From a virus: a DNA stretch of 64,000 nucleotides. The first letter of the stretch is position 1. Every line of letters begins with the position of its first letter. This document shows positions 51,818 through 64,000 of this stretch, piece by piece. Under the pieces are notes generated by a model, which searched no databases, was not told where the DNA came from, and saw only the letters and a list, made by a program, of their open reading frames with translations. The position numbers were made by a program, and so were the translations under genes. The DNA lies in the IMG/VR virus record IMGVR_UViG_3300023181_000004, positions 19,297 through 83,296 of that record; one strand, written 5' to 3'.

Positions 51818-52369
51818 CTACGTGAGGACGCCTATCGCAAGACCTAGCTGCCTGTCCACCTTCGTGACAGAGCGGTTGTCGATTAAATCACCAGGGGCAA
51901 CCGCCGAACCAGTGATAAACCGCATCTGCTCGAAGTTGATACGCATCTCGCGATCGGCCTGCTCACGATCCAGCGGTTCGAGCGCGGCCCAAATCAGCCC
52001 GATCTGCTGGACTGGACCTTCTTTATATTCACGAGCGATCGGGTCCATCACTTTGGTGCGACGCGAAAGCGAGTACCGACCAGTCGGTTCGAACAAACGG
52101 AAGCTGTCCCACAGCGTGCCCTCGCGCTGCTCCGACGGACCGTTCTCGCCCACGATGAACGGCGAACCGCCCGGCGATTGAATAACCATGCCAGCGCGCA
52201 GCGCCGTCGGAAAGGGCGTGCGCAGGACATGGCGGGGCTGCACGAACACGTAGCTGGGCTGCGAGTTCTGATCCGTCTCCGACAGAATGGCTTTGATCAC
52301 GCCGCGCCCACCCTCGATCACAAGGAACGGCAGCTCGAAGCGCCGGCTGACGGAGGCGAGGCTAACCAT
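51818..52369 (-). CDS. Tail protein of unknown role, 183 aa
   Basis: The ATG at 52369 overlaps the stop of the upstream gene (TAATG). Strand-rich N-terminus (RRFELPFLVIEGGRGVIKAI), a VGENGPSEQREGTLWDSFRLF middle and a C-terminus ending RSVTKVDRQLGLAIGVL. It lies between the M-like and J-like genes, so a tail-tip component is likely. No family is recognised. Confidence 0.65.
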   Translation of the reverse strand: MVSLASVSRRFELPFLVIEGGRGVIKAILSETDQNSQPSYVFVQPRHVLRTPFPTALRAGMVIQSPGGSPFIVGENGPSEQREGTLWDSFRLFEPTGRYSLSRRTKVMDPIAREYKEGPVQQIGLIWAALEPLDREQADREMRINFEQMRFITGSAVAPGDLIDNRSVTKVDRQLGLAIGVLT

Positions 52370-52776
52370 TAGCTCGTGTATCCTGGGTTGTGATGGATGA
52401 AGTTCACCTCCACCGGCTTGATGAAGCCTCCGCTCATGGCCTCCGCAGCCGGCACCGTCAATGGCGCTGCGAAGCGCACGACCATATTGCCGAAGTGTTG
52501 GTGAGGCAATGTAAACGGATCCCACGTTTCATGCCGCTCATAGAATTTCTCCAGAGCGCGAGCGTTGAAATTCGTGTTCGTGGTATCGTCATACAGCCCG
52601 GTAGTGTCATCGATATACCAGCGAAGCCCATAGAGCGTCAGCTTGATCTTCTTCTGGTATGGCGTCGTCGGGCGCGAGCTGAACTGCCAGCCGCCCAACG
52701 ACATCGTGCTCTGCGGAGCATCGCGCGGCAACGTCTCGGGGACGTTTCGACTAGGGCAGAAGTTGAACGTGTCCAT
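52369..52776 (-). CDS. Minor tail protein, gpM-like
   Basis: 135 aa, directly after the tape measure gene in transcription order, with overlap (the two share the stop/start region). The pattern F, then a Pro-rich turn, LTLYGLRWYID, LEKFYERHETWDPFTLP and MVVRFAAPLTVP resembles lambda gpM-type proteins (beta core with an interrupted helix). Position and pattern support the call; similarity is weak. Confidence 0.5.
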   Translation of the reverse strand: MDTFNFCPSRNVPETLPRDAPQSTMSLGGWQFSSRPTTPYQKKIKLTLYGLRWYIDDTTGLYDDTTNTNFNARALEKFYERHETWDPFTLPHQHFGNMVVRFAAPLTVPAAEAMSGGFIKPVEVNFIHHNPGYTS

Positions 52777-55700
52777 TATCGATCACTCGCAATATGCTGC
52801 ACCAGCCGCTTGCCGTCGCCATTCATCAGCTCATCATTCAGAATGACGCGCACGTCATTCGGACCCAGCGTCGGCTGCTGTGCGGCGGGGACAACGTAGA
52901 CGTTCGTCTCGGTGTGGTTCTTCATATCAAGCTTCGGCACTGCCTGCAATGAGTCGAGCGCTTTGGCGCCGTGCTGGTTGAGACGCGCCATGAATTTGTT
53001 GCCGACGCTGTCCACCGACTTCTTCTGCACGACCCATTCGCCGCGCGCGAGGCGGGCGTCAACGCTATCAGCTGCCGTGCTGCCGTTCTCGACAGAGCCG
53101 CCCATCTTGCGATAGATCTTGCCGTCATCGCCGAGCGTGCCGCCCTTGAACGCCGGTGGTCCGACGAAGCCCTGCGTCCCGCCGCTGGCGGCCGGCGCTG
53201 CCTTGGAGCCAAGGAAGGATGCACCAAGATTGAGCAGCAGGTTCATGATCTGCGTGGCGACCGCCTTCGCCGCCAGCTGGACCATCCATTGCATGATGCC
53301 CTTGGCGAAGCTCGCGAAGGCACCGAGCGCGCTCTGCGACCCATCCATGATCGACGTGAACATGGTCGCCAGCCCAGTGTTCACCGTGTCCAGCGCGCCG
53401 CCGAGGTTCATGATCAGACTCTGCGAAAAAGTCTGGTTCATATTGTTGGCTTGGCGATATGCCTCGATTGCCTTATTGAGACCATCGCTGAACGAGGTCG
53501 GCAGCAGACCACCGGCATTCAGCTGCGCGCCGAGCGCCTCGCGGTTCGCCATGAGCTTCTGCAGCTCGACGTTCATCGTTGCGAGCTGGGCGTTGACCGT
53601 CTCCGGGTTGACGCCCGCTGAGCCGATCGTGCTCTGCAGCGTCGACATCGCCGTCTGCTGCGCGCTGATCTGCGCGGGCAACGCTGTATATTGCGCCTTG
53701 GTCACATTCTCCTGCGCCATCGCCACCCGGTCGTTGGCAAGGCTCTTGACATAGTCCGGCACCTTGTTGCGCAGCGAGTAGCTATCGAGACCAGTGACCT
53801 GTGCCTGTGCGGTCTGCAGTGATGCATTTGCGCTCTGCGTCGCTTGCTCAAACGCGGTCGCTGCCGCCTTGGTCTGCTTCTCGACGCTCTTTATGATCGC
53901 ATCGGTGACCTTCTGATTGAAGTCCTCGACGTTCTGGGCGATCGTCTGCTGAACCTGCAGCATGCGAGCATTGAACTGCGTCGACCCCGGCGCGATGCCG
54001 CTGGCGGCCAACTCGTTGAGTGCCTGATCCTTGAGCTGGCCGTTGACCTTGTCGAGCGCTGCCTTCGCCGCGGCGACCGACGTGTCGAAGGTTTCCTTGG
54101 TCGTCGCGCGCGCGACCTCCTTGAGCTGCGTGGCAAGGTTAGCCTGATCGAGCGCGAGCTGCGCCTGATCCAGCTTCACATCATACTTGTCCTCGTTCTC
54201 TTCCGTGCGATCGGCGCGGCGCGTCGTGCCCTTGCGAACGCCGACGTGAATGTGCCGACCAGTGCCTTGGTTCTTGCCCTTGCCGGTCTCGTACTGAACC
54301 TGCGCGTTGATGCCAGCGGCGCGGTATTGTGCCCGCATTGTGGCCGCGTAGCGTTCGGCTTCCGCGTCCGACAGACCGCCAACGCCGAAGTCACGCGCCA
54401 GTCCGACGACATGCGGACTGGTCTTGCCGGTGGCGGGCGTCTTGCCGGCCCGGTGCATCGCATCCTGCTCGGCCGCCGTGCGTGTGCCGCTGCCGAGCTT
54501 AAGGCCAAGCGCCTGCCCGATCCGGTCGATGTCGCTCTGATTGACCAGCTTCTCCTGCTTGTCCTTCTCGCGCTGCAGCCGCGCCGCCTCGCGCGCTTCG
54601 GCCTTGGTCGGCTCCAGCGTGGCGTTGATCTGATTGCGCAGGCTGGTGACATCGGTGAGGGCGTTCTGGAGGAAATTGCGGTTTGCCCCCTGGATGCTCT
54701 TGTTCGCCAGCAACCCGTTGATATATTTGTCGAGAGCGTTGACCTTGCCCAACCCCTCGGTGCCGAGCTTGGTCTGGTCGACGCCCGTTGCCGATCCCAG
54801 CCGCGTGATGAGGTTCTGGATATCGGCCTGATCGTTGGTGATCTTGCGACCCTCACCCGTCATCGCTGCCGTGTTATCGGCGACGCGCGTGGTGATGATG
54901 TTGGCCTGTGCCGTGTTGGTCGCGATCGTACCGGCGGCCTGCACCACCTGATTGAGGCGATCGGCGAGGTCACGGTTGAAGCCACCGTTGTTCGGATCGT
55001 TGTCGGTGAAGCGCTTGACCGCGTCACCGAGAATGCCTTGCGCGCGCTGCGACTGTGGCGAGCCGGTGCCGTACTTCTGCAGCGCCGAGAGCGCGCCGCG
55101 CTCCTGCGGCGACAGCTGCGCCATGAGGCTGCTATTGCCCTGAATGCCGCTGATTGCCGCGCTGCCCCGCTGCTTCGCGTCGGCCGTCTGGAGCGCGAGC
55201 GCCGAACCCTGCGCGGTGAGGTCGGTGTTCAAAAGCTGCATCTGCGCCTGACGATAGCGCTGCACGGCGTTCGTGAGATCGTCGTAGCGATTGCCGGTGT
55301 TCGTCAGGTAGACGGCCAGCCCTTCGAAGCGCGACGTCAGCGTGGCGATCTCGGCGCCCGAGCGAATGTCGTTGCCGCGCAGCGTATCCTTCTGGACCGC
55401 AAGCCGCGCCATTTCCTTGTCCAGCTCGGTGATCTTGCCGGTCTGCTTGTCGACGGTGTCACTAGTCTCGGAGACTTGCGTCTGCAGGCGCTCGGACGCG
55501 GCGGTGGCACCATCGGACTTCTTGGTCCAGCTGTCCAGCCAGTCGCCGAAACCGGTGCCTTGCCCGGTCAAAGGATTGACGCCACCGGCCTTCTGAAACG
55601 GCGAATTTAGTCCAAGCGACGCCGTGTTGCCGAGGATATTAAATGTGCGACGAATACCTTCCTCGCCAGCAGGGGCCAGATCGGTGTTGTACCACGCCTG

Positions 55701-58034
55701 CGTGCCCTCTGCGTTCTGCTTGCGGATGTCATCGGCGGCCTTCCGGCTCTCCTCGATCCGATCGCTGATCGCGGTCAACACGTTCTTGAGAATGTTAAGC
55801 GGTGTCTCCATGCTCTCGGAGAGGCCCTCGGCGAGGATGTTCTTGAAGCGCTGCCACTGCGCGGTCAGCGAGTTCATTGCGCGCTCGTTCGCGACCGCAG
55901 CCGCACCGCTCGTGGCGAACGACAGCTGCAGCTGATCCATCACATCGACGTTGTTCTTGGCGACGAGGTAGAACGCGGCGGCGCGCGTCTCCAGACCAGC
56001 ATACGCCTGCCCGGCGCCGAAGCCCGCCTTCTGCAGCGTCTCCAATACGGCGGGCAGACCGCGCACGCTGACGTCCACGTCGGCGGCGGTGAGCTTGAGC
56101 GCCTTGAGCTGTGTGTTCAGCTTCTCGCTGGGGTTTGACAGATCAACAAGGAACTGTCGAAAGCCGGTGCCGATCGTCGAGCCGCTGCGCACACCAGCCT
56201 GGGCCACGGCACCGACCGTGGCAAGCAGCGTTTCGAGGCTGATGTTCTGCTCGTAGGCGGTGGCGCCGACATACTGGATCGCCTGACCGGTCTGCTGCAC
56301 GGTCAACTTGGTGCGGTTCAGGGCCGAGGTCATGAGATCGGCGACGCGGCCGGCCTCGCTGGCCTGTAGCTGGAACGATCCGAGCGCGGACGTGACGAGG
56401 TTCACGGCCTCATCCGGCGTTGAACCGGACGCGGTGGCGAGCGTCGTCACCGACGCAAGCACGCTGCGCATATCGCTGGCCGTGACACCGGCCTGCGCCA
56501 GCGTCTGGCTGATCTTGGCAAGATCGATTACAGAGAACCGCGACGTCGAACCGATGTCGTAGATCGCCGCCTTGATCTTCTGGAGCTGCGGCTCAGTGGC
56601 GTTCGCAATGGCTTGCAGCTTGGCCAGCTCATCTTCCATTTGAACGACCTGTTCAAGGCCACCTTGGACGCCGTTGAACACGCCGTATGCTGCCCCTGCC
56701 GCCGCGCCGTAGATCGCCGTGCGTGCGAATGCCGTCGCCGCGTAACTGGCGGTCAGCAGGCTTTGAAGTGGGCCAGCCTTGCCCTGCTTCTCCGTGGCGG
56801 CCTGCTGCGCCTTGGCCAGCTCCAGCTCCATGCGTGCCGCAGCGACATGCTCCGTGGATGCCGCGGCCAGCCGCTGCTCGGCGATAGCGGTCGCCTCGAC
56901 GGCGCGGCGAATTGCCTCCTTCGGCCCGAGCGCATTGATCTGCTCACGTGCGTACTGACCGGCGAGTGCCAGTTGCGCCTTCTGCTGCTCAACACGCTGC
57001 GACGCCGCCAGCCGCCGGTCAATCTCGACGAGCTTCTGCTCCTCGCGAACGAGGCGCTCGGCGGCGGCGACGTTGGCATTGGCGAGTTCCAGCCGCTGCC
57101 GCGCGGCGGTGACCTGTTCCAGTGTGGCGTTGCGATCACCGATCGACGCCTGCAGCTGGCGGCGCGCGTTCTCCTGCTCGAACTGATAGCCGACGAGGGT
57201 CGAGCGCGCATCGCCGCTGCGGATCACTTCGTCACGGACGTTCCCCGGAGCAAGCAATTTGCCTGCGGCCGGCAACTGTCCAGTGAGGCGACGGGTGGCA
57301 GCGTCCTGCGCGCGCCGTTCTGCCTCCGCCTGCTGGTTCAGCTTGCGGATCGTGCCGTCCAGCGCCGTGCCCAACGCCTTCTCAACGGCGATGCGATTGG
57401 CGATGCCGCGCGCCGCGTTGGCGTCGTTCGCAGCAACCGTCTCGCGCTCGCGCCGCAGCTGGTTCAGGCGCGCGTCCGACGCGGCCTTGGCGGCCAACGC
57501 GTCGTCGGTGTTGGTGATGCCGCGCGCCTTGGCGGTGACAGCGGCAGTCGCCGCTTCGCGGCGCGCTGCAGCGACTTCCTTCGCCGACGCGATTGCCGCC
57601 CGATCCTGCGATTTCTCGAAGTCGGCGATCTCTTTCGCCAACTGCTTCTCGATGCTGGCTTCCTCGCGCGCGAGGCGGGCCTTTTCTCCGTAGGTGACCT
57701 TGGCCTCGATCACCTTCTGGCGATTGGCCTCCTTATCGGCACGCACCTCGATCTGCGCCGTCCGTTTCGCATTCGCCTCGGCGTCTTGAAAACCTTTGGT
57801 GCGATTGGACTTATCAGTCTGCAGGGTCTTGAGATCGCTCTCAGCCTGCTTGAGCATCTTTAGATTAAGCGACAGCGCCTGCTGCCACTTCTTCGCGTCA
57901 TCCAGCGTGGTGACGCCGATACCGGTGACAACCTTCTGGATCTGGTCCATGAAATTCCGGACGAGCGTGAGCGCATCCAGAACTGGCTTACCGTCTGCAT
58001 CCAGAATGATGTCTTGGGTATATGCGTTGGCCAT
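52776..58034 (-). CDS. Tape measure protein with TP901 core and embedded M15-type peptidase
   Basis: 1,752 aa. The first ~430 residues are coiled coil. A TP901-type core (~465-720) shows MEDELAKLQAIANATEPQLQ, GSTSRFSVIDLAKISQTLAQ and QYVGATAYEQNISLETLLA. At ~1,175-1,265 an LAS/M15-like peptidase domain appears: GSGTRTAAEQDAMHR, SPHVVGLARDFGV and GRHIHVGV (His, Asp and His metal ligands). Near the C-terminus ~40 hydrophobic residues (MQWMVQLAAKAVATQIMNLL) could cross a membrane. Its length suggests a tail of about 250 nm if the usual ~1.5 A per residue applies. Confidence 0.88.
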   Translation of the reverse strand: MANAYTQDIILDADGKPVLDALTLVRNFMDQIQKVVTGIGVTTLDDAKKWQQALSLNLKMLKQAESDLKTLQTDKSNRTKGFQDAEANAKRTAQIEVRADKEANRQKVIEAKVTYGEKARLAREEASIEKQLAKEIADFEKSQDRAAIASAKEVAAARREAATAAVTAKARGITNTDDALAAKAASDARLNQLRRERETVAANDANAARGIANRIAVEKALGTALDGTIRKLNQQAEAERRAQDAATRRLTGQLPAAGKLLAPGNVRDEVIRSGDARSTLVGYQFEQENARRQLQASIGDRNATLEQVTAARQRLELANANVAAAERLVREEQKLVEIDRRLAASQRVEQQKAQLALAGQYAREQINALGPKEAIRRAVEATAIAEQRLAAASTEHVAAARMELELAKAQQAATEKQGKAGPLQSLLTASYAATAFARTAIYGAAAGAAYGVFNGVQGGLEQVVQMEDELAKLQAIANATEPQLQKIKAAIYDIGSTSRFSVIDLAKISQTLAQAGVTASDMRSVLASVTTLATASGSTPDEAVNLVTSALGSFQLQASEAGRVADLMTSALNRTKLTVQQTGQAIQYVGATAYEQNISLETLLATVGAVAQAGVRSGSTIGTGFRQFLVDLSNPSEKLNTQLKALKLTAADVDVSVRGLPAVLETLQKAGFGAGQAYAGLETRAAAFYLVAKNNVDVMDQLQLSFATSGAAAVANERAMNSLTAQWQRFKNILAEGLSESMETPLNILKNVLTAISDRIEESRKAADDIRKQNAEGTQAWYNTDLAPAGEEGIRRTFNILGNTASLGLNSPFQKAGGVNPLTGQGTGFGDWLDSWTKKSDGATAASERLQTQVSETSDTVDKQTGKITELDKEMARLAVQKDTLRGNDIRSGAEIATLTSRFEGLAVYLTNTGNRYDDLTNAVQRYRQAQMQLLNTDLTAQGSALALQTADAKQRGSAAISGIQGNSSLMAQLSPQERGALSALQKYGTGSPQSQRAQGILGDAVKRFTDNDPNNGGFNRDLADRLNQVVQAAGTIATNTAQANIITTRVADNTAAMTGEGRKITNDQADIQNLITRLGSATGVDQTKLGTEGLGKVNALDKYINGLLANKSIQGANRNFLQNALTDVTSLRNQINATLEPTKAEAREAARLQREKDKQEKLVNQSDIDRIGQALGLKLGSGTRTAAEQDAMHRAGKTPATGKTSPHVVGLARDFGVGGLSDAEAERYAATMRAQYRAAGINAQVQYETGKGKNQGTGRHIHVGVRKGTTRRADRTEENEDKYDVKLDQAQLALDQANLATQLKEVARATTKETFDTSVAAAKAALDKVNGQLKDQALNELAASGIAPGSTQFNARMLQVQQTIAQNVEDFNQKVTDAIIKSVEKQTKAAATAFEQATQSANASLQTAQAQVTGLDSYSLRNKVPDYVKSLANDRVAMAQENVTKAQYTALPAQISAQQTAMSTLQSTIGSAGVNPETVNAQLATMNVELQKLMANREALGAQLNAGGLLPTSFSDGLNKAIEAYRQANNMNQTFSQSLIMNLGGALDTVNTGLATMFTSIMDGSQSALGAFASFAKGIMQWMVQLAAKAVATQIMNLLLNLGASFLGSKAAPAASGGTQGFVGPPAFKGGTLGDDGKIYRKMGGSVENGSTAADSVDARLARGEWVVQKKSVDSVGNKFMARLNQHGAKALDSLQAVPKLDMKNHTETNVYVVPAAQQPTLGPNDVRVILNDELMNGDGKRLVQHIASDR

Positions 58035-58091: not shown

Positions 58092-59339
58092 TTAGACCGA
58101 GAAGGCGCGCTGAACAGGAGCAACGTAATGGTCGGGCATCAGGAGCCGGATCTTGTCCTGCACCTGCCGCAGCGGCAGCGCGCGGCGGCCAATGTCACCA
58201 TAGGCGCGACTGCGGAAGACCATGCTGATCGACTGACGTGCACGGTAGCCATTCTCGCTCGCCCACTTGTCCTTGGCGGCGAGCTGGTTCCAGCTCTCGA
58301 TCACGACGCCGGGGTGCTCCTTGAGCACCATGTTGTGGTGGATGTGGCCAATGTCGATGTAGCGATAATCGGCCTCGCCCCAATCCTGCGCAAAGTCAGT
58401 CGCCATGACCGAGGCCAGCCGCGCCGGCTTGCAGAGGTCGGAGTGGTGACACATGACGAACGTCTTGCCCATCCGGTAGCCGATGAAGGGCGTGTGGTTG
58501 TTGAGGACCGTGACGCGCCCGGTGTTCTCGTAGACGGAGCGGATCAGCGTCGCCATCCAGATGTCGTTGGTGCGGCTGTGATTGCCCTGATTGATGATGA
58601 CGTCGACATAGCGTGCCTTCGTCAGGCCCTTGTCGACGATCCGGCGCATGAGGCGCGCATAGACGTCGATCATCTTGGGGAAGCGCCCGTCGTAGTCGAG
58701 AGCGTGGCGGCTGGCTTCCGTGACGCCGCTCATGTTCTCGTAGTGGGTGAAATCGCCCATGTCCTGAATGACGAGGCGCTCGGTCGGCGGCAGCTCGTCG
58801 ATCAGCATCTCGATCGCGGTGCTCAGCTCTGCTTCGGCGATCTTGAGGTCGAAATTGGCACCGGTCTCGGCTTCGTGGGCAAGCATGCCGAGGTGGGCGT
58901 CGCCGATCTGGATCCACGGGATCACATCAGTGTCGAAGGTCTTGGGCGCGGAAGGGGCCTTGAGGCGAGGCTGCTCGGCGCAGAATGCCTCGACGCCCTG
59001 CTTGATCTGCTCGGCCCACTCCTGATCGTCGAGCCGTGTCTTCGTCCATTGCAGCACCTGCGTGCGTTCGCCGTTTGAGCCGACACGTTCGAGCGTCGAA
59101 TGCCCCTTGGCAATGAACGGATGCGGGACTGGAGAGTTGAGTCCTTGATCGGGAGCAAAGCCGTGAGCGGCAGCATTCGATCGGACCAAATTCATTGCGG
59201 CGCGCAGGCTGTTGTGGTGGCGGCCCAAATGCTTTGCCGCTTTCTTGATGTCGCCATCGGCGACGATGATCGCGTCAATATATGCTGATTGCACGGGCGT
59301 GGCCCACGCCTTCAATTCCTCGGTGACGGAGACGTTCAT
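58092..59339 (-). CDS. HTH-metallophosphoesterase protein inside the tail operon
   Basis: 415 aa from the ATG at 59339, AAGGA ahead. Residues ~10-60 form a possible helix-turn-helix (QSAYIDAIIVADGDIKKAAK, then HLGRHHNSLRAAM). From ~140 a calcineurin-like phosphoesterase follows: IQIGDAHLGM, QDMGDFTHYEN, INQGNHSRTND, MCHHSD and IGHIHHN, all metal positions present. Proteins with this HTH plus phosphoesterase layout occur in other phages with unknown function. Its place between I-like and tape measure genes is odd. Confidence 0.75.
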   Translation of the reverse strand: MNVSVTEELKAWATPVQSAYIDAIIVADGDIKKAAKHLGRHHNSLRAAMNLVRSNAAAHGFAPDQGLNSPVPHPFIAKGHSTLERVGSNGERTQVLQWTKTRLDDQEWAEQIKQGVEAFCAEQPRLKAPSAPKTFDTDVIPWIQIGDAHLGMLAHEAETGANFDLKIAEAELSTAIEMLIDELPPTERLVIQDMGDFTHYENMSGVTEASRHALDYDGRFPKMIDVYARLMRRIVDKGLTKARYVDVIINQGNHSRTNDIWMATLIRSVYENTGRVTVLNNHTPFIGYRMGKTFVMCHHSDLCKPARLASVMATDFAQDWGEADYRYIDIGHIHHNMVLKEHPGVVIESWNQLAAKDKWASENGYRARQSISMVFRSRAYGDIGRRALPLRQVQDKIRLLMPDHYVAPVQRAFSV

Positions 59340-59349
59340 GCATAAGTCC

Positions 59350-59886
59350 TTACATTGGATTGGACGGGAAGACCCCGTAGGAGATATTGGTGCTGTCGGA
59401 TTGAAGGCTAAGCCACTGACCAGCAAGGTCAATCCGACCCCACGCCATTACGATTGGCGTGCCCACTGCCGTCGTGTTCTTATTGACTGGAAGATATTTC
59501 GAAGCATCCGGATCATTGACGCTTTTCATGGTCGGCGATTTGAGAAAGAGACCGATCACGCCTTGAAGGATCATGAGGCCGCCGCTGACCAGCAACGGAA
59601 CGAAAAAAGCACTGCCGGGTCCGAGCGCAAACGCCAAGCCGACGACCACGGCGCCGAGAATGATCTGTCCGAACTTGCCGCCGCCGCCATGCATGGCCGG
59701 CATGATATGGATTTCTTCGGCGAAGTCGTAGAGCTTCTCACGCGTATCGAAACCGACGACGTGCACGAGGGTGTCGCGGGGCCAATCAACCTGTCGCGAG
59801 AAGCCTTCGAGTGCGTCCGCTACGGTGTCCGCTTGCATGACCACTGATGGCCCGAACATCATCCGGAGATTTCCGTGGAAAATCAT
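59350..59886 (-). CDS. Tail assembly protein, gpI-like
   Basis: 178 aa; the ATG at 59886 overlaps the JAB gene stop (ATGA). It begins with a ubiquitin-like strand set (MIFHGNLRMMFGPSVVMQAD, then TVADALEGFSRQVDWPRDT), then MHGGGGKFGQIILGAVVVG and a hydrophobic, Gly-rich part (~75-115). This is the lambda gpI layout. In lambda, gpI acts with gpK in assembling the tail tip before gpJ. Confidence 0.75.
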   Translation of the reverse strand: MIFHGNLRMMFGPSVVMQADTVADALEGFSRQVDWPRDTLVHVVGFDTREKLYDFAEEIHIMPAMHGGGGKFGQIILGAVVVGLAFALGPGSAFFVPLLVSGGLMILQGVIGLFLKSPTMKSVNDPDASKYLPVNKNTTAVGTPIVMAWGRIDLAGQWLSLQSDSTNISYGVFPSNPM

Positions 59887-60314
59887 TCGCATGCGATCAC
59901 CAGACCTTTCTCGACCCGATAGCGCTGGACGAAAACCTGTCCGCTTCGATGTCCGATGATGCTATGCTCCAGATCGGGGTACGCAAGGAAGCCCAAATAG
60001 TCTTCACCGCTAAGATTAGGGTCGCCGCGCGGGTGCGTGTGCCACGTTCCAGCGATCAGGTCGGCTTCGAGAAACGGGAGCACCGCTACCGGGTTCATAT
60101 CATAGCTGTTGTTCTTCTCCTCGGCAACGTTCTCGATCTCGACGATCGAACCGTCCTTGAGGATCAGACCGCAGCGCTCCTCTTCGTCTTCATGACGGTA
60201 GAGCGTTTCGAGCGCGAAGCAGGGTTGCGATGTCGACGTCGGGGTAGACGGGTCGGAGATCTTCGACGTCAGGATGACGGAGGACAAAGCAGATGGAGTT
60301 TCGATAGAAGCCAC
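59883..60314 (-). CDS. JAB/MPN (JAMM) tail protease, gpK N-terminal-like
   Basis: 143 aa from GTG at 60314, with CTGGAG 7 bases ahead; no later start exists in frame before the domain. Residues ~45-115: EERCGLIL, then GTWHTHPRGDPNLSGEDYLG, the JAMM zinc motif (E, HxHP, S, D complete). In lambda this domain is fused ahead of NlpC/P60 in gpK. Here it is separate and comes second, overlapping the NlpC/P60 gene by 125 bases. Confidence 0.78.
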   Translation of the reverse strand: MASIETPSALSSVILTSKISDPSTPTSTSQPCFALETLYRHEDEEERCGLILKDGSIVEIENVAEEKNNSYDMNPVAVLPFLEADLIAGTWHTHPRGDPNLSGEDYLGFLAYPDLEHSIIGHRSGQVFVQRYRVEKGLVIACE

Positions 60315-60666
60315 GGAACGTCTCCAGCGTTGATGTTCGGCCGTACAGATGATGGATCAGCTGATCGTTGCCGATATAAATTGCGAAGTGGTTCGCATTC
60401 CGCTCGCCGATCGCCATACATAGAACATCACCCGGCCGCAAGTCCTTGACGCGCCACTCGGTGATCATCTCGAAACCCTCGCGCTCGTAGCAGAGGCGCA
60501 TGAGGTCGATCTGGTCCGATGACCAGTTGGTGGGTCGAGCGTAGTTGGTGATCGTGATCCCGAAATTCTCGATATAGAAATCCCGGAATAGCGAAAGGCA
60601 ATCGCTCGATCCCCAAATGAAGGGTCGGTCGATCAGGTGCTCATATTTGAGATCCTCAATCGTCAC
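60190..60666 (-). CDS. NlpC/P60 tail peptidase, gpK C-terminal-like
   Basis: 158 aa, GTG at 60666 overlapping the stop of the L-like gene (ATGTGA). WGSSDCLSLFRDFY has the catalytic Cys at ~22; NHFAIYIGNDQLIHHLYGR carries the catalytic His at ~92 and the following His. The preceding DLRPGDVLCM is also typical. It is a tail-tip cysteine peptidase or amidase likely to act on peptidoglycan or in assembly. Confidence 0.8.
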   Translation of the reverse strand: MTIEDLKYEHLIDRPFIWGSSDCLSLFRDFYIENFGITITNYARPTNWSSDQIDLMRLCYEREGFEMITEWRVKDLRPGDVLCMAIGERNANHFAIYIGNDQLIHHLYGRTSTLETFRGFYRNSICFVLRHPDVEDLRPVYPDVDIATLLRARNALPS

Positions 60667-61157
60667 ATTTGCACCGAGGGGAACGCCGGCGGCAGATATT
60701 GCCGATAGGGCAGAGAAAAACCCATGCTGTCAGACAGCGTGGCGAGCTGGAGACTGATCTGCGATCGACTATATTGCTCCACACGCTTCACACGATAGGT
60801 GTTGATTTCGCGGATCAGCCGATTGTTGATGAGATTGTCGAGCAACACGGTGATGCGAATGATCACGGCGTTGTCAAGATAACCGTCATAGACCAACGGC
60901 TTGAATTGGGAGAGATCAATATTCGGTTGACCGAGCTGGAGCTTTGGCATCGACAGCCCGGTATCGGCAGACTTCTTCTCGCCGCTCATGGCGACCGGCA
61001 ACCCGGTGTATGTATTACCTCGCCACGTGACATCATTATCGTTCTTGAACCGAACGACGCCGGTGCCGCCCGACGGTGTCAATTCAAACAGATCGACCCG
61101 GCCGTCCGACAACAGCTGGTGCGAGTCTTTAATATGTTCGAGTGGGATTTCAGCCAC
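60663..61157 (-). CDS. Minor tail protein, gpL-like
   Basis: 164 aa; GTG at 61157 is chosen because GGAG is 5 bases ahead. The start (HIKDSHQLLSDGRVDLFELT, GGTGVVRFKNDNDVTWRGN, YTGLPVAMSG) follows the lambda gpL pattern. The Cys cluster of lambda gpL, which binds an iron-sulfur centre, is not seen. It precedes NlpC/P60 as L precedes K in lambda. Confidence 0.75.
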   Translation of the reverse strand: MAEIPLEHIKDSHQLLSDGRVDLFELTPSGGTGVVRFKNDNDVTWRGNTYTGLPVAMSGEKKSADTGLSMPKLQLGQPNIDLSQFKPLVYDGYLDNAVIIRITVLLDNLINNRLIREINTYRVKRVEQYSRSQISLQLATLSDSMGFSLPYRQYLPPAFPSVQM

Positions 61158-61170
61158 GGTGGCTCCATAC

Positions 61171-61201
61171 AAAACGGGCGGCCCAACGAATGGACCGCCC
61201 G
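61171..61201 (-). terminator. Minus-strand terminator after the major tail protein
   Basis: On the minus strand CGGGCGGTCC and GGCCGCCCG pair (9 bp with one bulge) and are followed by TTTTGT. It lies 27 bases after the major tail protein stop, so it can lower expression of the minor tail genes that follow. Confidence 0.75.
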
Positions 61202-61227: not shown

Positions 61228-62076
61228 TTAACCGCCGACGTAGAGCTTGCCCGGCGAGCGCGTGCCGATTTCCGACAGGCGCGGCGCGCCGGTCAGTTCG
61301 CCGCGCGAGAGCAGGAGCGGCTTCATCTCCCAGCTCATCGAGCTGTACTGGGTCTCGTTGAAGACGAGACCGAAGCCCTTGACCATGCGAATCTTCGGCG
61401 CGATGTAGACCATCGGGCGATCGAAGTTCGACAGGGTGCCGACGATCTTGGCGCAGAACAGATCGTCCGCATCGATGTCGCCGACGTTGACCGGCTGCAC
61501 GACCCAAACCCGCGCACCGACCGCGAAGGTCATATCGGTCGGGATGCCGTGCGCGGCGTCGAGCGCCACGACGTAAGGGCCGCTGCCCGTCGCTGCCGCC
61601 GACGTGACGGTCGGGAAGACATAATCGGTTTCACCGCTGCCGCGCTGGATCAGGATCGTCGAGCCGGCGGGGATGTCACCGATGGCGGTAATCGCCGAGG
61701 TGATTTCGCCAGGGATCGGGTCAGAGGCAATCGACAGACTGACAGCGCCGCCAGCCACCGCCGCCGTGAGCCGGCCGCGCTTCACAGGCGTCGCGGCGCC
61801 GGACATGGCGTGCGAGCGCATGAAGTTCTGCGCGGTCATTTCGAAGACGTTGCCGGTGATGCTCGACGTCACGCCGGTGCGCTTGGCGTCGACCTCGGTC
61901 TGAGCCACGCCATTGAGCAGCGAATTGATCGAGCTGTCGAGGCCGACGTTGACCTCGGACACCATGCCGATCGAATGCAGCTCGGGGCGAAGGGAAAAGA
62001 CATCGTCCACGAACGCTCGACCAAGCATGATCGTGGCCGAGGACAGGGCGAATGCGGACTTCTGAACGTCGGCCAT
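61228..62076 (-). CDS. Probable major tail protein (tail tube)
   Basis: 282 aa, GGAGT before the ATG. The body is beta-rich with many Gly, Ala, Thr and Val (GVTSSITGNVFEMTAQNF, AAVAGGAVSLSIASDPIPGE, GSGETDYVFPTVTSA). It has no membrane segment and no enzyme motif, and a strong terminator stands behind the gene. Position at the head of the minor tail genes and expected high expression fit a tail tube protein. A specific family is not recognised. Confidence 0.6.
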   Translation of the reverse strand: MADVQKSAFALSSATIMLGRAFVDDVFSLRPELHSIGMVSEVNVGLDSSINSLLNGVAQTEVDAKRTGVTSSITGNVFEMTAQNFMRSHAMSGAATPVKRGRLTAAVAGGAVSLSIASDPIPGEITSAITAIGDIPAGSTILIQRGSGETDYVFPTVTSAAATGSGPYVVALDAAHGIPTDMTFAVGARVWVVQPVNVGDIDADDLFCAKIVGTLSNFDRPMVYIAPKIRMVKGFGLVFNETQYSSMSWEMKPLLLSRGELTGAPRLSEIGTRSPGKLYVGG

Positions 62077-62173
62077 TGAGGCAACTCCTGCTTGAAACTC
62101 AGAAAGGCTCTTGCCTTCTTTTCGCTTTAGCTCAATAGGAAAGATTGCAACCGCCGATCACCACCGGAGATTT

Positions 62174-62392
62174 ATGCCCAAACCCTCTGCCCCGAAGGAG
62201 GATCACCGCAGCTTCACGGTGCGGATCCCCGAGACCCTCTACAACACGATCGGCGATCTCGCCAACGCCGAAGGCGTTTTCGTGAATGTAAAAGTCAACC
62301 AACTGTTGCGACTTGGACTTGGCGAACACGTCAGTCTCGATGCCGCGCTGGCCCGCCTCCTCAAGAAAGAAGTGACCGTTGATGTCGGATGA
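62174..62392 (+). CDS. Ribbon-helix-helix-like small regulator, 72 aa
   Basis: ATG at 62174 after CCGGAG. After a short basic start the sequence reads SFTVRIPETLYNTIGDLANA, then VNVKVNQLLRLGLGEHVS: one strand and two helices in Arc/MetJ order. It is the first gene of the plus-strand chaperone unit and may regulate the divergent tail promoters. It overlaps the next gene by 11 bases. Confidence 0.65.
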   Translation: MPKPSAPKEDHRSFTVRIPETLYNTIGDLANAEGVFVNVKVNQLLRLGLGEHVSLDAALARLLKKEVTVDVG

Positions 62393-62810
62393 TCCCCTTC
62401 CCCCGCGTCCGGACCTGACGATCGACATCGCCGGCCAGACCATCAAGATGACCTACGGTCTGGAGATGGATATTCGCCGCATGTTGCCGGACCCGATGTC
62501 GGCGCTCCAGCTCATCCGCGATGATGTCTACACGCAGGACTATATCGTTCGCCGCGTGCTGACCCCCGTCAAGAAGATCATCACCGATCCGGCGCAGTTG
62601 ATCGACATGGAAGAGACCGACGTCTCCTCGGAGGATGTCGAGAACATCCTGACGTGGGCGACGGAGCACGCGCTCTATTTTTTCGTGAAACGGACCGTGG
62701 AGATGGCCAAGCTGGGGGTCCGTTACAATCAGGCCCTTCCGAAGCCCTCCACGGATGGTTCCGAGACCTCAGCTACGACGACGCCGTCTGCTGGGCCTTC
62801 GGATGCGTAG
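62382..62810 (+). CDS. Tail assembly chaperone, gpG-like
   Basis: 142 aa. LTIDIAGQTIKMTYGLEMDI and RRMLPDPMSALQLIRD at the start, a helical core (DAxxILTWATEHALYFFVKR type) and a low-complexity Thr/Ser/Pro end match G-type chaperones that coat the tape measure protein during assembly. A second frame continues the coding region after a slippery site, giving a GT-type product. Unusually, it is on the strand opposite to the tape measure and all other tail genes. Confidence 0.7.
   Translation: MSDDPLPPRPDLTIDIAGQTIKMTYGLEMDIRRMLPDPMSALQLIRDDVYTQDYIVRRVLTPVKKIITDPAQLIDMEETDVSSEDVENILTWATEHALYFFVKRTVEMAKLGVRYNQALPKPSTDGSETSATTTPSAGPSDA
62714..62720 (+). other. Probable -1 programmed frameshift site (G GGG GTC)
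   Basis: GGGGGTC in the frame G-GGG-GTC lets both tRNAs slip back one base. The -1 frame is then open to 63076. A second heptamer, T-TTT-TTC at 62678-62684, is also in the right frame. The G-site is preferred because chaperone-like sequence in the -1 frame begins shortly after it. Confidence 0.6.
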
Positions 62811-63076
62811 AGGGCGACCTCGAAACTGACATATACTGGCGGTACGCACGACGCGAGATTTCGCAGAAGATCCAGCTGCGCCTCGGCGAGCAAAATGCCG
62901 TTCTGCTCTCGCACCACAACTCGTTCGTCATGGTCGTGAACGCGGCACTCGGCGGCGGGGACAAGAGCGGTGCACCGCCGCCACGCCGTGGTGATCCGGG
63001 CGTGAAAGACCTTGGCGCCGGACATTCCACTCCCGAAGCCGCCGCCGCCGCCATTAACGCGGCTATGACTTTCTGA
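62714..63076 (+). CDS. T-part of GT tail assembly chaperone (frameshift extension)
   Basis: About 118 codons in the -1 frame relative to the G gene, giving a GT product of ~231 aa. The sequence (HGWFRDLSYDDAVCWAFGC, then YWRYARREISQKIQLRLGEQ, then an Ala/Gly/Pro end) is proper protein, while the G frame over the same DNA is low complexity. It has no good start of its own. In lambda the T part binds the tube protein. It ends 14 bases inside the convergent minus-strand gene. Confidence 0.65.
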   Translation, partial: GGPLQSGPSEALHGWFRDLSYDDAVCWAFGCVEGDLETDIYWRYARREISQKIQLRLGEQNAVLLSHHNSFVMVVNAALGGGDKSGAPPPRRGDPGVKDLGAGHSTPEAAAAAINAAMTF

Positions 63077-63938
63077 ACAAACGCCCGCTGGCGGTGCCCT
63101 TGGCAATGCGCTGAGACACCGCCTGCGGGATAGCTCGTTCAAGGAAGAAGCGCAGATAGGGTTCGAGGGTCGGACGATATCGACCGCGCCCACCGCGCAG
63201 ATGCAGCGCTACGACAGGATCTTCGCGGCCAATCGCCCCCAGCAGCGCCGCGTTGGGCTGATCCGAAATTCGCGTCATGGACTGGGTCACCTTACCCAGC
63301 GCGCGCACCCGGATCGTAGCCAGTTGCAGTTCGACTTTGGTGCCATCACGGCTGAGTTTCATGGTGCCCTGATTGACGCCCCAGCCGCGGTTGTTGCGCT
63401 GGACCTGCACGCTGATCCCTCCGAAGATATCTTCAAGAATACCGCCGCTACCGACATTCACTTCGCCGCCGCCCGCCGTGCCGACTTTATCGCTGGAGAA
63501 GAAGCCGGCGAGGGTGCCGCCGTCCGGCTCCCAGCCACTGTTGTCGAACCAGTTTTGGTGGCCGGTAAAGACCTTCTTCTCTTCAAGGTAACGCGCGCCG
63601 CGCGGCGCCCATCGCGGCAACGACCCAAGGCTCTCGCGCGGCTGGGCGCCGCCCTTCGAAACAGTGGTGAGCGTGCCAACCAATCCGCGCTGATTACCCG
63701 GCGCGCCAATGACGTTGCGCCGGAAGTCGCCGGCCACATGCGCCAGCTCGGCGCGGACATCACGCTCAACGGCGATCTGGAGTTCTCGCTTGGATTGCTC
63801 CCAGTTCTGCTCAGCATAGGAAAGAGTGACTTGCTCGACAACAGCGCGCGTCGTATCCTCGGACTCTCGACGACGCTTGACTTGGCCCTTGCCGAAGACG
63901 AAGCGGAACGTAATCGGCCGTTTAGGAGCTTGTGCCAT
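63063..63938 (-). CDS. Structural-type hypothetical protein, 291 aa
   Basis: The ATG at 63938 is used; 63950 is an alternative and the ribosome binding site is poor for both. A basic N-terminus (MAQAPKRPITFRFVFGKG) is followed by a long helix and then a beta-rich middle (SSDKVGTAGGGEVNVGSG, DIFGGISVQVQRNNRG). The C-terminus is Arg-rich. It is first on the minus strand before the major tail protein, where tail completion or head-tail joining proteins usually sit. No family is recognised. Confidence 0.6.
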   Translation of the reverse strand: MAQAPKRPITFRFVFGKGQVKRRRESEDTTRAVVEQVTLSYAEQNWEQSKRELQIAVERDVRAELAHVAGDFRRNVIGAPGNQRGLVGTLTTVSKGGAQPRESLGSLPRWAPRGARYLEEKKVFTGHQNWFDNSGWEPDGGTLAGFFSSDKVGTAGGGEVNVGSGGILEDIFGGISVQVQRNNRGWGVNQGTMKLSRDGTKVELQLATIRVRALGKVTQSMTRISDQPNAALLGAIGREDPVVALHLRGGRGRYRPTLEPYLRFFLERAIPQAVSQRIAKGTASGRLFRKS

Positions 63939-64000
63939 GTCCTCACCCATTCCAGCAGTATATAAATCAATCGTGCGTGCAACGAGCGATTTGATCAAAA
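63937..64000 (+). CDS. Start of a plus-strand gene leaving the window
   Basis: TTAGGAGC lies 8 bases before an ATG at 63937, and the frame reads MSSPIPAVYKSIVRATSDLI to the window end without a stop. The opposite strand over the same bases is less protein-like. The start overlaps the divergent minus-strand ATG by two bases. Only 21 codons are visible, so no function can be given. Confidence 0.5.
   Translation, partial: MSSPIPAVYKSIVRATSDLIK

Follow-up and report, generated by a model that had tools for sequence, protein, structure and literature searches.

Few landmarks serve phage annotation as often as a frameshifted chaperone gene directly before the gene for the tape measure protein (TMP), and the stoichiometry of chaperone and tape measure is easily explained if the two are transcribed together. 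The locus analysed here raises the question of whether this linkage is needed at all. It lies in a 64-kb stretch of DNA (hereafter, the window) that forms the final part of a virus record of 83,296 bases and carries its tail genes on the minus strand, from 63998 down to 42994. Within this operon, with a putative neck gene on one side and the tube gene on the other, a block of three open frames occupies the plus strand: a ribbon-helix-helix (RHH) gene, a G-like gene and T, open in the −1 frame (Table 1). The minus strand carries both flanking genes and also L, K, I, TMP and J. An earlier note had read the block as a tail chaperone gene and its −1 frameshift extension, inverted among minus-strand tail genes and preceded by an RHH gene. 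The strands of the window and 13 further loci confirm this layout, including the position of the RHH gene ahead of G. The interval that the note gave for the chaperone pair, 62174-63076, is a real feature, but it starts with the RHH gene, and G/GT proper spans 62382-63076.

Table 1 Features of the chaperone block and its surroundings, in window coordinates.
Feature	Position	Strand	Details
Tape measure protein (TMP)	52776..58034	-	phrog_37649, E=1e-88
Exonuclease gene between tube and TMP	58092-59432	-	
Tail assembly I	59350-59892	-	
JAB-type tail protein	59883-60314	-	
NlpC/P60	60190-60666	-	
Minor tail L	60663-61172	-	
Intrinsic terminator just after the tube gene	61175..61201	-	11-bp stem and T run
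Probable tail tube (major tail) protein	61228..62076	-	phrog_28493; function by position only
Promoter-like CTTGCC-N17-CAATAG for the RHH-G-GT unit	62110..62138	+	-35, 62110-62115; -10, 62133-62138
Leader with conserved CAACC and GGAG ribosome-binding region; putative operator (inferred)	62139..62173	+	intergenic alignments
Arc/Mnt-like ribbon-helix-helix (RHH) protein	62174..62392	+	72 aa; phrog_582, family profile
G-type tail assembly (tape measure) chaperone	62382..62810	+	142 aa from ATG; phrog_37198
Slippery heptamer T_TTT_TTC for -1 frameshift	62678..62684	+	
T extension, -1 frame	62684..63076	+	homologues in -1 frame in 75/75 loci
Putative neck/tail-completion gene up311, upstream of tube	63063..63998	-	homologue at corresponding place in canonical relatives

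Judged by homology, G and GT are a genuine tail assembly chaperone pair. G matches phrog_37198 (tail length tape measure protein chaperone; E=1.3e-16), as do all 51 of the 51 aligned G homologues, which bears out the chaperone identity proposed earlier and speaks against these proteins being unrelated to tail chaperones. The AlphaFold model of G (pLDDT 89.9) finds its best BFVD match in the tape-measure chaperone of Caulobacter phage Seuss (E=3e-7). A PDB fold search with this model returned no significant match and no solved structure alike, so kinship with lambda gpG rests on the phrog_37198 annotation, the frameshift architecture and the synteny of canonical relatives. Family searches yielded no family of its own for the T part and no match for up311, and a plasmid search with the G/GT DNA found no close relatives. 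The ATG start of G, next to a TTG at 62379, overlaps the RHH stop by 11 nt.

The −1 frame is open from 62525 to 63076, and T_TTT_TTC is the sole X_XXY_YYZ heptamer in the G/T overlap, in the correct phase for a −1 slip. The predicted GT product joins 62382-62684 to 62684-63076 and comprises about 231 aa. A slippery heptamer is found in the overlap in 74 of 75 loci (a set, also used for the T homologues, that includes some duplicate records) and is nearly always T_TTT_TTC or T_TTT_TTT. Among five close inverted relatives (W, L005, L018, L007 and L009), dS measured in the G frame is about 0.08-0.28 in the G/T overlap, compared with 0.55-1.3 in the rest of G; this depression shows that both frames are in use. 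Beyond G, dN in T is well below dS, the mark of purifying selection. The conserved heptamer and frame, together with dual coding, thus point to programmed −1 slippage that joins G to T, in support of the frameshift extension suggested earlier. As in lambda (Xu, Hendrix and Duda; PMC5009743), two products would arise from one start through a −1 frameshift. The record of Caulobacter phage Seuss annotates ribosomal slippage at the T_TTT_TTC site (PMC4591317). The deposited records of the Achromobacter phages JWF (L003 12001-12680) and 2-1 (L004 12001-12689) annotate G only; an unannotated −1 T extension with T_TTT_TTC is present in both.

What sets the window apart is position. Lambda-like phages have the pair on the tail strand, flanked by tube and TMP; here it is on the opposite strand, upstream of the tube gene, behind an RHH gene and a promoter-like element of its own. 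The tube gene, which in relatives sits between the neck genes and TMP, is divergent from the RHH gene and is separated from TMP by L, NlpC, JAB, I and the exonuclease gene. The product of the latter resembles DNA repair exonucleases (phrog_704, 1.6e-92) and is encoded inside the tail operon. At the other end of the block, the stops of GT and up311 are convergent and overlap by 14 bp (63063-63076); a search for a terminator at this junction found none, so antisense transcription across the block is possible.

The inversion is not a product of misassembly, an explanation that the earlier note had left room for, because the same block recurs in another 13 non-redundant metagenome loci of IMG/VR. 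Searching IMG/VR with G retrieved ten loci, and a profile search retrieved 61 there and 7 in genomes; marker profiles placed on all of them define four states, written here in tail direction. The canonical state (up311, tube, G, T, TMP) is found in 41 largely non-redundant loci, Seuss, JWF, 2-1 and Lumi among them; in 29 an RHH gene stands on the other strand, divergent from the tube gene. In every named relative that was checked (Seuss, JWF, 2-1, Lumi and others), tube, G/GT and TMP run in this order along a single strand. The inverted state (up311; T, G and RHH on the other strand; tube, L, NlpC, JAB, I, exonuclease, TMP) is found in the window and the 13 further loci, whose G proteins are 49-82% identical; the TMP core marker is absent from 7 of the 14 inverted contigs, and inversion relative to the tube gene is seen in 14 of 14. 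The remaining two states are single loci. In L071, T, G, RHH and the neck-region gene x518 are on the other strand and TMP still adjoins the tube gene (this contig was binned to a Thermosynechococcus MAG, a host link that we distrust). In L070, the Sphingopyxis flava R11H prophage, RHH, G and T precede the tube gene on the tail strand.

Comparison with individual relatives brings out what was kept and what moved. The phrog_37198 chaperones of Seuss, JWF and 2-1 have homologous G (about 24-30% identity) and T, with T_TTT_TTC at the same codon as in the window; they differ in that tube, G/GT and TMP follow one another on one strand and RHH stands alone on the other. The Sphingopyxis prophage shares with the window the RHH-G-T block before the tube gene and the RHH/G overlap, but carries the block on the tail strand and without the CTTGCC-N17-CAATAG element. 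Other genes vary in place as well. The exonuclease gene lies between I and TMP in the inverted clade, and its homologue in the prophage is located after I. The gene x518 precedes up311 in canonical relatives and is on the RHH strand in L026 and L071; its homologue in the window is at 51818-52390 on the minus strand, between an M-like gene and J. These displacements of x518 indicate that several tail and neck genes have been reshuffled in this clade.

In a tree of seven concatenated tail proteins, the 14 inverted loci form one clade (100/100), with the Sphingopyxis prophage as its sister (100/99); L071 and the canonical L026 come next, in a branching order that is not settled. A tree that joins L071 to the inverted clade and leaves the prophage outside was rejected (AU p 5e-5), and one that joins L071, the prophage and the inverted clade without L026 was not (AU p 0.115). 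RHH overlaps or closely abuts G in the inverted loci, L070 and L071, so the RHH-G junction was probably formed once, and a single joining of G/GT to RHH is likely, not proven. The presence of RHH divergent from the tube gene in 29 canonical loci rules out that it was a newcomer brought by the inversion. Going by gene order across the loci, the RHH gene is ancestral and it is G/GT that moved to join the RHH unit; this separation from the tail strand was possible because RHH already faced away from the tube gene in the ancestor.

The earlier note had also called for a separate promoter in 62077-62173. In support of it, the element CTTGCC-N17-CAATAG, 35-39 bp before the RHH start, is kept with at most two mismatches in 13 of the 14 inverted loci, with a spacing of exactly 17 bp in all 13 and a spacer sequence that is not conserved. 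Sequences resampled under a Markov control contained the element in 0.14 loci on average and in 2 at most, compared with the 13 observed. The element is −35/−10-like in its spacing, and its second hexamer is not sigma70-like; a scan with the Escherichia coli sigma70 consensus gave no hit for it. TTGNC-N17-CAATAG has a single perfect match in the window, ruling out a repeated phage-wide promoter class. Insertions of about 720 bp, possibly homing endonuclease genes, lie between tube and RHH in L011 (4510-5232) and L022 (4873-5593). L022 is the inverted locus without the element; in L011 the element stays with RHH despite the insertion of about 0.7 kb. At the corresponding site the canonical L026 carries CTTGAC and CAATGA, plus flanking GAAACTCA, and the control region thus seems older than the move of G/GT.

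Sequence and fold both place the RHH protein among Arc-like regulators. It matches phrog_582 (Arc-like, E=0.0011); its family profile matches Mnt, Arc and AmrZ structures (E 3e-6 to 1e-5), Pfam Arc is found in 16 of 35 family members, and Foldseek pairs it with Arc/AmrZ at a probability of 0.96-0.99, though with E>0.1. A search of the phage collection with the protein gave no match at E<=1. Like Arc, Mnt and AmrZ, it has the sequence profile, the predicted fold and the divergent placement typical of autoregulators; unlike them, it is linked to a tail structural operon and is a putative DNA binder.

We consider it likely that G/GT left the slot before TMP and became the downstream part of a separate, RHH-led operon on the opposite strand. 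Under this model, a promoter at 62110-62138 would drive RHH-G-GT, translation of G would be coupled to that of RHH, and slippage of a minority of the ribosomes at T_TTT_TTC would yield GT. In lambda, where the G:GT ratio is about 30:1, many copies of G bind and chaperone the tape measure protein, and GT links it to the tube protein, which the T domain is thought to recruit (PMC5009743). By analogy, G would coat the tape measure protein and GT recruit the tube protein here, both in trans. These steps can all proceed in trans, so the strand of the gene is irrelevant to the chemistry. The location beside TMP is a positional habit, not a functional requirement. The RHH protein would bind the RHH/tube intergenic region, repress its own promoter and probably affect a putative divergent tube promoter, which would make chaperone dose independent of how much the tail operon is transcribed. 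On this, the simplest model, the unit would be uncoupled from tail transcription and probably RHH-autoregulated, and the RHH protein may time the chaperone against tail production. The strong post-tube terminator, which the inverted phages retain, suggests what such a move could change. A hairpin is predicted after the tube gene in 9 of 9 inverted loci examined, and the Seuss and JWF records annotate a terminator at the equivalent site, after tube and before G. For chaperone to be made in canonical phages, transcription must therefore read through the terminator or begin at another promoter; G/GT of the inverted clade appears to have escaped the terminator and come under control of the RHH promoter. 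As an extension of this scheme, free G/GT, not engaged with the tape measure protein, might modulate RHH binding at the intergenic region, a feedback that we regard as a long shot. Equally speculative is its corollary that the status of tail assembly controls tube transcription, in the manner of RHH antitoxins modulated by the product of an overlapping second gene.

A plainer account, tenable though not in our view the probable one, is that the tail region is prone to rearrangement and the inversion arose neutrally as a by-product. The choice of promoter would then be immaterial, RHH would be a small regulator with no connection to the chaperone, and neither timing nor dosage would be affected. 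The same clade has also reshuffled TMP, L-K-JAB-I, M and x518, the Sphingopyxis prophage carries its RHH-G-T block on the tail strand, and the strand of genes whose products act in trans may not matter. Neutrality fits less easily with the retention across 14 loci of the inverted block, the close RHH-G junction and the promoter-like element, and with an insertion in L011 that left this element adjoining RHH. Conservation of the arrangement while G identity falls to 49% argues that it is at least stable.

The convergent 3′ end suggests another role for the inversion, in which tail readthrough from up311 into GT produces antisense RNA over GT-G-RHH and the late tail transcript shuts down chaperone synthesis. 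Overlapping stops with no terminator found between them speak for such a switch, but canonical phages, too, have RHH antisense to the tail transcript, and there is no sign of a dedicated antisense element; we find this reading unlikely. A working chaperone elsewhere, with the plus-strand pair reduced to a decayed or moonlighting duplicate, is hardly credible: the odd location of the pair is all that suggests it, and the loci examined, the window's own 83-kb record included, yielded no further copy of G. Moreover, both G and T are under purifying selection and bear the dual-coding signature, and the post-tube (about 55 bp) and pre-TMP (about 57 bp) slots are too small for a G gene.

Our search of open-access papers found no earlier description of a tail chaperone on the opposite strand; the tail-chaperone papers that it found place the pair beside TMP or do not mention strand. 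Proteins and frameshift alike belong to a known type; what is new relative to this literature is the conserved opposite-strand placement. A clade of uncultivated phages that splits chaperone and TMP by strand and promoter implies that their linkage is not required. Annotation pipelines that scan only the same-strand neighbours of TMP will miss the gene. The canonical L026, the co-directional Sphingopyxis prophage and the inverted clade provide natural experiments on chaperone dose, and the Arc-like regulator, a neighbour of the tube gene in dozens of related phages, is now tied to tail morphogenesis.
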